A DNA stretch of 38,606 nt from Clostridia bacterium (GTDB lineage Bacteria; Bacillota; Clostridia; Christensenellales; Aristaeellaceae): contig JAFUZM010000331.1 in NCBI GenBank assembly GCA_017476605.1, positions 1 through 38,606 of the forward strand. Direction: 5' to 3'. This document shows, one piece after another, positions 34,972-38,606 of the stretch; positions within the stretch are counted from its first letter, which is position 1; every line of letters begins with the position of its first letter. Below the pieces are notes generated by a model, which was not told the origin of the DNA, made no database searches, and saw only the letters and a list, made by a program, of their open reading frames with translations. The position numbers and the translations under genes are program-made.

Positions 34972-35457
34972 ATGGAAGTTCGAAAGTATCAGGCCGATGA
35001 CATTCCGCAGATGATTGAAATATGGAATCAGGTCGTAGAGGATGGAGAAGCATTTCCTCAGGAAGAGAACCTCAATATTGAAACAGGTACAGAGTTTTTT
35101 GCACAGCAAACCTATACCGGGGTGGCTTCTGAGGATGGTCAGATCTATGGACTGTATATTCTTCATCCGAATAATATCGGCAGATGTGGGCACATTGGCA
35201 ATGCCAGCTATGCGGTCCTGAAAGAAAGCAGAGGCGAGCATATCGGTGAAAAACTGGTAAAGGACTGCATGATGAAAGCCGGACAGTTTGGATTTCGGCT
35301 CATTCAGTTCAATGCGGTTGTCGAATCCAATACGCATGCAAGGCATTTGTATGAACGCCTGGGATTTCAGCTTCTCGGGACGATTCCGGGAGGATTCCGA
35401 ATGAAAGATGGACATTATGAAAACATCTGTCTCTATTACTATGAGGTGCACGCATGA
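34972..35457 (+). CDS. GNAT-family N-acetyltransferase
   Basis: This 161-residue protein begins MEVRKYQADDIPQMIEIWNQVV, a common start of GNAT enzymes in Clostridia, and contains the AcCoA loop ESRGEHIGEKLVKD (R/G-x-x-G-x-G-like: RGEHIG) followed by NAVVESNTHARHLYERLGFQLLGTIPGGF. This arrangement resembles phosphinothricin/L-amino-acid acetyltransferase-like members, but the substrate is unknown. ATG 34972 follows AAGGAG. The open frame continues upstream to a GTG at 34888, but that part has no good ribosome site. It is monocistronic with a promoter (34724-34753) and a terminator right after the stop. Confidence 0.9.
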   Translation: MEVRKYQADDIPQMIEIWNQVVEDGEAFPQEENLNIETGTEFFAQQTYTGVASEDGQIYGLYILHPNNIGRCGHIGNASYAVLKESRGEHIGEKLVKDCMMKAGQFGFRLIQFNAVVESNTHARHLYERLGFQLLGTIPGGFRMKDGHYENICLYYYEVHA

Positions 35458-35458
35458 T

Positions 35459-35486
35459 CGCCCGGCCAGATCCGGGCGTTTTCTTT
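35459..35486 (+). terminator. terminator of the GNAT gene
   Basis: CGCCCGG (35459-35465) pairs with CCGGGCG (35472-35478), followed by TTTTCTTT. Confidence 0.85.
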
Positions 35487-35592
35487 ATTCTGCCGCGGAT
35501 GCTGCGGTGTGATATTGCTTTATGCCATTTCTGTAACGAACACTTTGAGTATGGAGGAAAATTTGGGGGTGTTCAGACAGAGAGAATCGGGG

Positions 35593-35598
35593 TATAAT
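35593..35598 (+). promoter_or_regulatory. -10 element of the mgtE promoter
   Basis: A perfect TATAAT lies about 200 bases upstream of mgtE; the -35 (TGTTCA at 35570-35575) is weak. A start near 35605 would give a leader of about 190 bases, which contains the short ORF and stems listed next. The gene-free stretch 35458-35794 holds nothing else recognised. Confidence 0.5.
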
Positions 35599-35633
35599 GG
35601 GTTTGCCCATGTAAAGTGATGAAATGAGAGGTG

Positions 35634-35708
35634 AGACAAGTGGACGGTCAGGACAGTACAGGTCATGAATGCACCGAGATACCACCGGATAAGCTTGTCT
35701 TATCTCGG
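35634..35708 (+). promoter_or_regulatory. mgtE leader with competing stems
   Basis: Three pairings share the same right-hand bases: AGACAAG (35634-35640) with CTTGTCT (35694-35700); GATAAG (35688-35693) with CTTATC (35699-35704); and CCGAGATA (35674-35681) with TATCTCGG (35701-35708). The first and third could coexist as a pseudoknot; the second excludes both. No M-box consensus is visible. Confidence 0.5.
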
Positions 35709-35726
35709 ATGTCACGGTTCAGATGA
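35640..35726 (+). CDS. short leader ORF upstream of mgtE (28 codons)
   Basis: A GTG at 35640 opens a 28-codon frame ending in TGA at 35724-35726. The GAGGTGA at 35628-35634 is a seven-base match to the anti-Shine-Dalgarno sequence at good distance, unusually strong for a chance ORF. The peptide has acidic residues early (D2, D5, E10, E13), then I-P-P-D at 14-17, and a basic end with several arginines. Codons 12-23 form the competing stems of the leader, so ribosome movement would decide which stem forms. It ends 69 bases before mgtE and is in another frame. No homologue is known to me; enterobacterial mgtL, a proline-rich leader peptide before a Mg2+ transporter, is an analogy only. Confidence 0.5.
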   Translation: MDGQDSTGHECTEIPPDKLVLSRMSRFR

Positions 35727-35794
35727 TCCTTGTATGCGGCCTATACCAATACGACAGTGGGCGTAACTGTTGAAAGATTGGGAGGGAATGCGAC

Positions 35795-37219
35795 GTGGAC
35801 GATAATGAAGAAAGGGTCGAACAAGAAGAGGAAGAAAAGATGGAGCGTCCGGATTACGCAGAAGAAATATCGCAGATGCTGTACAGTGATCTCGATCTTC
35901 GCGAAAAGAAGGAACGACTCGAAAACTATCATGCCAATGACATAGCGGATGTTCTTCCGCTTTTAACCAAGGAAAAACGTCTGAGGATGTACCGCATTCT
36001 TGGACCGGAAGCGGTTGCCGAGATCTTTGCTTATTTGGATGATCCCGCAGAGTACGTGGCTGAACTGGACGTAGAGAAGGCTGCGGACATCGTCGAAAGC
36101 ATGGACGCGGATGATGCCGTTGATTTCCTTGAGGATCTGGATACCGAGCAGCAGGACGCGATTCTTGCTCGAATGGATGAGGACAGCCGGCGCGATATTA
36201 ATCTGATTCAGTCCTATGATGAGGATGAAATCGGCAGCAAGATGACGACCAACTACATTGCCATTACAAGAGGGTTTTCCGTCAAGCAGGCAATGCGGGC
36301 ACTGGTCCGTCAGGCAGCTGAAAATGACAATTTGCAGACCATTTATGTTCTCAATCGGGATCAAACCTTTTATGGGGCGATTCCGCTCAAGGATCTCATC
36401 CGGGCGCGTGAATTCGATGACCTGGATGAGCTGATCACAACATCCTATCCCTATGTGTATGATTATGAAACGGTCAGCGAGTGCATAGAGGAACTGAAAG
36501 ATTACAGTGAGGACTCCATACCGGTTCTCAGCCGGGAGAAAAAACTGCTGGGTGTTATTACCAGCCAGGACCTCGTCGAGGTTGTCGATGAGGAAATGGG
36601 CGAGGATTATGTCAAACTGGCAGGTCTTACTGAAGAAGAGGATTTAAACGAACCGTTGCTGCAGAGCATGAAAAAGCGCATCACATGGCTGGCCATTCTT
36701 ATGGCACTCGGCCTTGTCGTCAGCTCGGTTGTTGCTGTTTTTGAACCGGTCATGTCTGCACTCACAATCCTGGTAGCGTTCCAGTCACTGGTTCTTGCGA
36801 TGGCCGGAAACTGCGGGACGCAGTCTTTGGCAGTGACCATCCGCGTTTTGTCGGATGAGGAACTGGCTGCATGGCAAAAAGTGAAACTGATCGTGAAAGA
36901 GGGAAGGGTCGGACTTTGCAATGGTCTCGTCCTTGGAGTACTGGCGGTGCTCTTCTGCGGTCTGTACATTCATTTTGGGAAACAGATGGCCTGGGGTAGT
37001 TCCTTCCAGATTTCCATGTGCATCGGAGCTGCGCTGGTACTGGCGATGTTCATCTCCGGTGTTAGCGGAACGGTGATTCCCATGTTTTTCAGCAGGATTC
37101 ATGTTGATCCTGCCGTGGCATCCGGTCCGCTGATAACAACAGTCAATGACCTTGTTGCCGTCATAAGCTATTATGGACTGGCGTGGGTGTTCCTGATTCA
37201 CTTCATGCATCTTGCGTAA
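35795..37219 (+). CDS. mgtE: magnesium transporter MgtE
   Basis: This 474-residue Mg2+ channel has the full layout: a superhelical N domain (about 20-130, acidic), a tandem CBS pair (about 140-265) that senses cytosolic Mg2+, a connecting helix and five membrane segments from about residue 285. Pore signatures are GNCGTQSLAVTIR (from G338) and ASGPLITTVNDLVAVISYYG (from A442), in which D452 fits the pore aspartate of the Thermus protein. The start is GTG at 35795, nine bases after GGAGG. A structured leader with a short ORF precedes it and a strong terminator follows. Confidence 0.95.
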   Translation: MDDNEERVEQEEEEKMERPDYAEEISQMLYSDLDLREKKERLENYHANDIADVLPLLTKEKRLRMYRILGPEAVAEIFAYLDDPAEYVAELDVEKAADIVESMDADDAVDFLEDLDTEQQDAILARMDEDSRRDINLIQSYDEDEIGSKMTTNYIAITRGFSVKQAMRALVRQAAENDNLQTIYVLNRDQTFYGAIPLKDLIRAREFDDLDELITTSYPYVYDYETVSECIEELKDYSEDSIPVLSREKKLLGVITSQDLVEVVDEEMGEDYVKLAGLTEEEDLNEPLLQSMKKRITWLAILMALGLVVSSVVAVFEPVMSALTILVAFQSLVLAMAGNCGTQSLAVTIRVLSDEELAAWQKVKLIVKEGRVGLCNGLVLGVLAVLFCGLYIHFGKQMAWGSSFQISMCIGAALVLAMFISGVSGTVIPMFFSRIHVDPAVASGPLITTVNDLVAVISYYGLAWVFLIHFMHLA

Positions 37220-37394: not shown

Positions 37395-38606
37395 ATGGTA
37401 CATTTCAGAGGCCGGACAAAGGAGCTAATGCTTCTTGATCGCAAGTTTGAGCAAAACGGCTTTGTTATGACCGTTCTATACGGCAGACGCAGGATAGGGA
37501 AAACCACGCTTATCAATAAGTTCATACATGAGCATGACTGCCGTCATATTTCCTTCACTGCTGTTGAGAGGGAAGAAAAGGAGCTGCTGTCCATGATGAC
37601 AGAGTCGGTCCTGATGGCGCTGTCTCCGGATATGGCCGGCAATATCCATTTTAACAGCTTCGAAAGTCTCTTTGATTTCGTTGGGACAAGGGCTCAGGAA
37701 GAGCGGATCATCTTTTTCATTGACGAATATCCCTATCTGGCAAAGCAGTGCTCATATATTCAGTCCGTTCTTCAGAAAGTGATTGATACCAAATGGGAAA
37801 ATGGCAATCTGTTCTTTATCATTTGCGGTTCTCTCGTCAGCTTCATGAAGGATGAAGTGCTTGCGGAATCAGCGCCACTGCATGGACGGAGCAACCTTGA
37901 GCTAAAACTTCGACCACTCAATTATCTTGAAACCGCAGAATTCCTTGATGGATATTCATTCGAAGAAAAAGCCATATGTTATGGTCTCACGGGTGGTGTG
38001 GCAAAATACATTGAGCAGTTTGACACACGGCTTAATCTTGAAGAGAATGTGATCAATCAGTTTTATTCCATTGGCGGATATTTTTCAGAGGAACAGGTAA
38101 AGACCGTTGTAACAAGCGATAAGCAAAACCCCGCTCTCTATAACAGCATCATCTCCGCCGTTGCAACGGGACATACAAAAAACGGAGAAATCGCCTCCTG
38201 CATTGGCGTGGATGAAGTGACATATCCTTTGAAGATATTGGTCAACGCTGAAATACTCGAGAAAAGGATAGCATCCGGCAAGCCATATTATGTTCTGAAT
38301 GACAGCATGCTGGAGTTTTGGTTTAGATATGTAAACAGAGCATCCAGCCTGATTAACGCAGGAAATGGAGAAGCATTCTATCACGCCTATGTGAAAGAAC
38401 ACCTGCATGATTTCATGGGAAAAGTGTTTGAAAAAATGGCAAAAACATATCTTTTTATCCATGTTGGACAGGGCGATGTTCCAGTAGTAACGGATATCAC
38501 AGAATATCAAAACATCATCCTGAACGATAAAAGAGAAAAGAAACAGATCGAGATCGACGTGCTGGGAAAAAATGATAAGGATATCCTGCTGGTTGGAGAA
38601 TGCAAA
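37395..38606 (+). CDS. AAA ATPase with C-terminal DUF234/PD-(D/E)XK region (3' end off window)
   Basis: The frame stays open for 404 codons to the right edge. The N-terminal part is an archaeal-type (PF01637-like) ATPase: FRGRTKEL, Walker A GRRRIGKTTL (K36), Walker B IIFFIDEYPYL (D110/E111), the ICGSLVSFM sensor strand and LRPLNYLETAEFL. A winged-helix region follows (about 235-310), and then a DUF234 domain: YVLNDSMLEFWFRYV, FEKMAK, and at the very end IEIDVLG...LLVGECK, the D...ExK arrangement of a PD-(D/E)XK nuclease. The start ATG at 37395 follows AAAGGGAAG. Cellular role of the family is unclear to me; the repeats before it suggest autoregulation. Confidence 0.9.
   Translation, partial: MVHFRGRTKELMLLDRKFEQNGFVMTVLYGRRRIGKTTLINKFIHEHDCRHISFTAVEREEKELLSMMTESVLMALSPDMAGNIHFNSFESLFDFVGTRAQEERIIFFIDEYPYLAKQCSYIQSVLQKVIDTKWENGNLFFIICGSLVSFMKDEVLAESAPLHGRSNLELKLRPLNYLETAEFLDGYSFEEKAICYGLTGGVAKYIEQFDTRLNLEENVINQFYSIGGYFSEEQVKTVVTSDKQNPALYNSIISAVATGHTKNGEIASCIGVDEVTYPLKILVNAEILEKRIASGKPYYVLNDSMLEFWFRYVNRASSLINAGNGEAFYHAYVKEHLHDFMGKVFEKMAKTYLFIHVGQGDVPVVTDITEYQNIILNDKREKKQIEIDVLGKNDKDILLVGECK

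Follow-up and report, generated by a model that had tools for sequence, protein, structure and literature searches.

The window, i.e. the whole stretch of 38,606 nucleotides analysed here, carried a Mg2+ transporter gene, mgtE, preceded by a leader containing a short open reading frame (ORF). The features located in this region were the following:

35593-35598, + strand: TATAAT, a likely -10 element, from which the transcript would be expected to start at about 35605.
35604-35610, + strand: TGCCCAT at the 5' end, able to base-pair with GTGGGCG (35757-35763), which lies in the loop of the hairpin over the mgtE ribosome site.
35628-35634, + strand: GAGGTGA, ribosome site of the leader ORF, read in the sequence and in the alignment of near leaders.
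35640-35726, + strand: leader ORF, VDGQDSTGHECTEIPPDKLVLSRMSRFR (start VDGQDSTGHECTEIPPDK...), 28 codons with a GTG start and a TGA stop.
35640-35669, + strand: codons 1-10 of the leader ORF (V-D-G-Q-D-S-T-G-H-E), its conserved part, with Ser encoded by AGT and acidic residues at codons 2 and 5.
35674-35708, + strand: hairpin within the later codons of the leader ORF, pairing CCGAGATA (35674-35681) with TATCTCGG (35701-35708) over 8 pairs.
35732-35794, + strand: hairpin found by folding (core 35736-35792), pairing part of the mgtE ribosome site GGGAGGG (35780-35786).
35795-37219, + strand: mgtE, with a GTG start and the MgtE_N, CBS and MgtE domains.

The mgtE product scored 294.8 bits against TIGR00400 (cut-off 232.75). 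The GTG-started 28-codon ORF and its GAGGTGA site, described in an earlier note on this DNA, were both present in the sequence. The TATAAT motif was seen by eye at about the same place in six related leaders (L011, L012, L016, L033, L036, L037) and was absent from the list of full sigma-70 sites given by the promoter search of the window. Upstream, an ORF ending at 35457, acetyltransferase-like as judged by eye, had directly behind it a G+C-rich hairpin with a T run (35459-35478), which is likely its terminator and separates it from the mgtE unit. Downstream of mgtE, an ORF remaining open to the window end (~37395-38606) appeared by eye to encode an ATPase-like product with a P-loop (GKTTL).

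Searching 41 genomes with the DNA of the window leader gave matches in six, one of them the source of the window itself, and an MgtE search gave a match in 25 of 29 same-genus genomes. Among the 15 close MgtE copies (at least 71% identity, including that of the window, with L038 taken by position), nine had a leader ORF, five had none of any kind (L009, L010, L013, L034, L038), and the leader of L035 was cut off. Seven of the nine leader ORFs shared the N-terminus GTGGACGGTCAGGACAGTAC (window, L011, L012, L016, L033, L036, L037), and L014 and L015 had an altered form, VDASDSTAHGLCA... The 23 nt from the start codon were identical in six of the seven near leaders, with one base different in L011, and the N-terminus, codons, ribosome site and -10 element were identical or nearly so in six relatives with MgtE identities between 71% and 80%. 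Start codon, frame and N-terminus were intact in the window and in the six nearest ORF-bearing leaders; frameshifts or start codon losses, named in the earlier note as counter-evidence, were seen in none of them. Leader ORFs were also found at 51-53% MgtE identity in L017 (MDGGSSSR...) and L018 (MDGSSRGR...). Among five same-order copies (52-56% identity), L039 had a similar ORF (VASDSLPS...), and none was found by the ORF rule in L040-L043. This survey covered copies down to 51% identity, beyond which lay the 14 distant same-genus copies L019-L032 (28-31% identity) and two further distant rows without locus. In four genomes (G003, G014, G015, G023), one mgtE copy had a leader ORF and the other had none (L010, L013, L034, L038), so that both copies may be controlled differently. 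The L037 leader lies on a second mgtE contig (G000:C369) inside the window's own assembly and, as this assembly has 7.6% contamination, may stem from a second species.

The distribution of the leader was further surveyed by scanning GTDB genomes with an MgtE alignment, and the best 80 loci listed, whose titles name Clostridia, were considered. Many Clostridia had, ahead of mgtE, a GAGGTGA-like ribosome site followed by a leader ORF with a related N-terminus, for which the consensus is [MV]-D-[SG]-x-D-[SG]-x-[GY]-R-S, with starts such as MDSCDSTGRSS, MDSCDGSYRRRGC, MDADSNYRSS and VDGYDSIGD behind GAGGTGA. The combination of ribosome site and N-terminal motif occurred 43 times within 54,976 bases of sequence preceding mgtE, at 42 of these best 80 listed loci, and the same ORF rule had no match in the 731,996 bases of other sequence from the same 80 loci used as control. 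By this fixed rule, 38 of the 80 loci had no ORF, among which L051, L060 and L117 carried variants missed by the rule; a short space before mgtE was common among the ORF-less loci, L101 having just 5 bases. In whole-genome scans, which avoid selection by mgtE, a strict DNA pattern of the N-terminus matched in 16 of 115 and in 10 of 299 genomes and another pattern matched once in 391 genomes of the class, the rarity of these matches being no measure of leader frequency as the patterns were strict and were built from mgtE leaders. The reversed patterns had no match in the same 115, 299 and 391 genomes. All 27 whole-genome matches stood before an MgtE ORF, at a distance of 97-325 nt from the open MgtE frame for 26 of them; as some came from the same or sister species as the 80 loci (L126 and L098 share one peptide), the two sets are partly dependent. 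No copies of the leader were found in a phage collection.

An M-box or another known riboswitch was rejected as the mgtE leader, as no covariance match was found at the leader. At gathering scores, no Rfam family was detected in the window, M-box (RF00380) included, and a search of 35440-35850 with E values up to 10 returned two chance-level matches, neither of them to a riboswitch; the statement of the earlier note that the conserved M-box core is not seen here thus withstood the covariance check. M-box searches also gave no match in the best 80 mgtE loci listed, in 29 same-genus genomes (candidates scored partly in six, including G000) and in six further genomes (candidates scored partly in two), with positive results for the B. 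subtilis and L. lactis controls. The 80 loci gave ten Rfam matches, to tRNA, T-box, TPP, fluoride, TwoAYGGAY and skipping-rope families, all of them at a distance from the leader ORFs. The TwoAYGGAY RNA matches at L107 (4941-5106) and L061 (5221-5359) lay on contig stretches shared with mgtE.

Leader peptides were compared after reducing the 80 leaders to 61 non-redundant ones by shared 12-mers. Early acidic residues, already noticed in the window, were the best conserved residues, with an acidic residue at codon 2 in 60 of the 61 peptides and at codon 4 or 5 in 56. Proline occurred within codons 2-10 in only five of the 61, and PP in three. The I-P-P-D run starting at codon 14 of the window peptide was therefore rejected as a pause site, this run not being conserved. 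Of the overall interpretation offered in the earlier note, the conserved leader ORF, the missing M-box and the resemblance in principle to mgtL were retained, and the pause at codons 14-17 was given up.

Codon choice within the conserved part was strongly biased. Counts were made on 46 distinct 5' ends from 54 ORFs, after removal of L044 and L046 (contigs same as L011 and L012) and of one spurious L094 ORF, which was also removed from the arm-to-ORF test described below. Within codons 2-10, serine was encoded by AGT in 86 of 92 cases (10.3 expected from the mgtE genes of the same loci) and arginine by CGA in 35 of 42 (3.4 expected), and several codons were used for Asp, Cys and Gly. From codon 12 to the end of the leader ORFs, AGT accounted for 9 of 75 Ser and CGA for 8 of 59 Arg codons; at the starts of 210 other ORFs, the corresponding counts were 14 of 73 and 4 of 85. 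The window and its close relatives retained AGT and had His or Tyr in place of Arg at codon 9. Because of its relatives, these codon counts and the upstream counts, the leader ORF of the window is more than a chance ORF.

In many leaders of the MDSCDS type, an intrinsic terminator was found between the ORF and mgtE, and the codons just 3' of the conserved part resembled the 3' arm of this terminator. Under a strict rule requiring 7 pairs in both helices and a T run behind, a terminator was present in 20 of the 61 leaders and absent from 41. Eight of these 20 had a matching 7-mer within the ORF (third segment), compared to 0.9 expected by shuffling of ORF segments, with a maximum of 6 in 100,000 simulations, and 12 had no third segment. 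In all eight, the third segment began at codon 12, 13 or 14. A subset of leaders (8 of 20) thus showed the attenuator feature of complementarity between ORF codons and a terminator's 5' arm. The paired words varied by leader (GCGATGG/CCATCGC, GCGGTGG/CCACCGT, CACGATG/CATCGTG, GCGGCAC/GTGCCGC), as would be expected from compensatory change. A three-segment energy test gave a combined P of 2.3e-7 over 59 leaders, 11 of which were below 0.05 singly, these P values being too small and independence overstated since the leaders are akin to one another. The energy and strict tests superseded a first terminator search and a simple arm-to-ORF test (10 of 29 leaders below 0.05, 7 below 0.01), which were noisy because the likely antiterminator had been taken for the terminator in some leaders. 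In L053, L056, L058 and L059, the 3' arm of the hairpin before a T-rich stretch, GACAGTCAGG, resembled by eye codons 5-8, GACAGTATAGG or GACAGTATGGG; L058 failed the terminator rule of the arm-to-ORF test. If codons 5-8 act as the antiterminator in this group, a halted ribosome would hide them, which would be easier to reconcile with drop-off than with a lasting stall.

The terminator/antiterminator geometry of the eight leaders would suit any stall, and the leader could accordingly be read as an attenuator responding to another signal, either slow decoding in general or the charging of Arg, Ser or Cys tRNAs, for which mgtE would be an odd target. The fixed AGT and CGA codons are in line with such a reading, as is the slow decoding of AGU and CGA in a bacterial his-leader assay, in which, according to the accessible part of PMC4046918, AGU, CGU and GGU showed high stalling and CGA was poorly read, with warnings about context. 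Against it, the gene behind the leader was mgtE in 27 of 27 whole-genome matches and never an amino acid gene, the best conserved residues were acidic, and no run of codons for a single amino acid, as found in classical attenuators of amino acid biosynthesis, was visible by eye. Control by another signal is therefore considered unlikely.

The fixed codons also raise the question of whether the conserved stretch (GAYAGU-N6-CGAAGU) is an RNA element, such as an aptamer or a protein-binding site, incidentally readable as codons, and the conserved AGU and CGA could alternatively reflect recognition of the RNA itself. AGT and CGA are indeed fixed at the nucleotide level, and near leaders share the 23-nt identity described above. 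However, the wobble bases of Asp, Cys and Gly varied, and in all 29 leaders detected regardless of frame the core shared the reading frame of the start, the start-to-core distance shifting by whole codons (12 nt in 23 leaders, 9 nt in four, 6 nt in one and 24 nt in one). This combination of free wobble positions and a maintained frame disfavours an untranslated DNA or RNA element. Start codon and ribosome site were also retained, and Rfam gave no match at the leader ORF, making an RNA element a rather improbable explanation. Overall, the leader ORF is conserved, of coding type and tied to mgtE in many Clostridia.

Its conserved start, stop and N-terminus would also be compatible with a gene for a small working protein acting on MgtE. 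Among small proteins, MgtS and MgtR act on MgtA or MgtC. Conservation in the mgtE leader was, however, confined to about ten residues, followed by a variable remainder in peptides of 21-49 codons (61 leaders, none shorter than 21), five peptides tried had no match in Pfam or NCBIfam, and the synonymous codon choice at the start was fixed, so that a working protein is very unlikely.

Concerning the leader of the window itself, the three pairings competing for 35694-35708 that the earlier note had pointed out were present, with 13 (35628-35640 with 35694-35706, in the minimum-energy fold), 8 (the later-codon hairpin) and 6 pairs (35688-35693 with 35699-35704, read from the sequence). The fold of the leader barely exceeded that of shuffled sequences (z = -1.52, with 11 of 200 shuffles as good), so that stability alone does not single out these stems. 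The 13-pair stem, which involves the leader's own ribosome site, was rejected, its second strand within the ORF codons not being conserved. The later-codon hairpin had positional counterparts, counted without a chance control, in five of six near relatives, of the CCACTT/AAGTGG type and CCGCTT/AAGCGG in L037.

The hairpin over the mgtE ribosome site, a feature unreported in the earlier note, had a like hairpin in seven of seven near leaders (in altered form in L016), with z values from -1.65 (window) to -4.4 and inner pairs CCAAT/ATTGG, CCAAAA/TTTTGG or CCAAAT/ATTTGG. In the window, three of the five GGAGG bases of this ribosome site were mostly paired. Complementarity of 6-7 nt between the 5' end and the hairpin loop was found in six of seven near leaders, not in L016 (counted without a chance control), and may point to a role for the TGCCCAT element. 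One fold paired 35656-35666 (codons 6-9) with 35723-35735, beside the mgtE hairpin; as both can coexist, this pairing hardly opposes the hairpin. Terminator searches found none between the leader ORF and mgtE in the window, and its nearest relatives showed no convincing one either, which, together with the conserved hairpin over the mgtE ribosome site, indicates that control is probably translational in this group.

The missing terminator, the three-segment test of the window leader (p = 0.85) and the modest hairpin z of just -1.65 could also mean that the ORF of the window copy is a relic and that its leader exerts no control, the mgtE hairpin being a fixed feature. The N-terminus, codons, ribosome site and -10 element kept (near-)identical in six relatives at 71-80% MgtE identity speak against such a relic, which is the least probable of these alternatives.

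Overall, the mgtE leader is probably a case of leader-peptide control of the MgtL kind, i.e. a translation-monitoring switch in which early elongation would fail at low Mg2+. A ribosome would start the short peptide and meet ten first codons that are hard to read, owing to the acidic residues encoded at positions 2 and 4-5, to AGU codons and, except in the window's own group, to CGA codons. With ample Mg2+, the ribosome would move on and cover the later codons, so that in the terminator leaders the terminator would form and mgtE would be off. With scarce Mg2+, early drop-off or an early stop would leave the later codons unoccupied; these would then pair with the terminator's 5' arm, allowing transcription of mgtE. 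For the window and the leaders nearest to it, control would probably act on translation through the mgtE ribosome-site hairpin, which reading of the leader ORF might either open or close. We infer that the ORF is translated, and that early drop-off serves as sensor and Mg2+ as signal. As two early acidic residues, the feature at which low Mg2+ favours drop-off in MgtL, are the best conserved part of the mgtE leader, Mg2+ is the best guess for its signal.

By its working principle, the leader is closest to mgtL, and it is new by sequence, host, transporter and expression platform. As described in the accessible parts of PMC11282234 and PMC11552253, low Mg2+ favours ribosome drop-off at the early acidic EPDP motif of MgtL, raising mgtA, and efficient reading of the mgtL and corL ORFs goes with low expression, as proposed here for the mgtE leader. 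Like mgtL of mgtA (Salmonella, E. coli) and corL of corA, the mgtE leader is a short ORF before a Mg2+ transporter gene and, as in MgtL, acidic residues stand at the very start of its peptide. Of the acidic residues and prolines with which MgtL begins, only the acidic ones are conserved in the mgtE leader, proline occurring within codons 2-10 in 5 of 61 peptides. The transporter (MgtE), the peptide and the phylum also differ, an intrinsic terminator or a ribosome-site hairpin takes the place of Rho, and AGU and CGA codons are conserved in the mgtE leader, unlike in mgtL and corL.

Other Mg2+-linked leaders offered looser parallels. The M-box (RF00380) of Bacillus mgtE/ykoK likewise sits in the mgtE leader of a Gram-positive bacterium, whereas an ORF stands in place of the M-box here, for which no match was found in the window, the 80 loci or the 29 same-genus genomes. 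The mycobacterial M-box with uORF2 (Rv1805A) shares a conserved small ORF in a Mg2+-linked leader; there, by the description in the accessible part of PMC12810186, the ORF is under M-box control and encodes a peptide specific to mycobacteria, with a conserved Pro at position 7 in most. The mgtE motif SRC-65-1 of Thioalkalivibrio is also an mgtE leader element, in which a stem carries the mgtE ribosome site at its base, but, by the description in the accessible part of PMC11109978, is a strong riboswitch candidate reported only from Thioalkalivibrio. A search of journal papers outside subscription titles and preprints found no published account of this mgtE leader peptide. No such leader appeared in the accessible text of PMC11109978, PMC11282234, PMC11552253, PMC3641672, PMC12810186 and PMC2965389, and the words magnesium and mgt were absent from that of the last.

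More tentatively, and at somewhat less than even confidence, Clostridia lacking the M-box may have evolved, independently of the enterobacteria, a ribosome-based Mg2+ sensor for mgtE, in which early Asp and synonymous AGU/CGA codons were selected so that early elongation fails at low Mg2+, the sensor peptide being wired to intrinsic terminators or to a ribosome-site hairpin depending on the lineage. If so, the ribosome-read peptide would serve as a Mg2+ gauge beyond enterobacteria, having arisen again in a distant phylum and with a different transporter, and would provide one explanation of mgtE regulation in those Clostridia where no M-box was found. The fixed slow codons would then be a natural case of visible selection on synonymous choice in a sensor, and the effect of Mg2+ on early elongation could be tested by codon swaps leaving the peptide unchanged.

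In addition, leaders of the MDSCDGSYRRRGC... group (L066, L067, L075, L098, L118 and others) had a second conserved stretch at codons 16-23, mostly KNDSDENH. In several of these leaders, the RNA of this stretch is able to pair with a segment further downstream.
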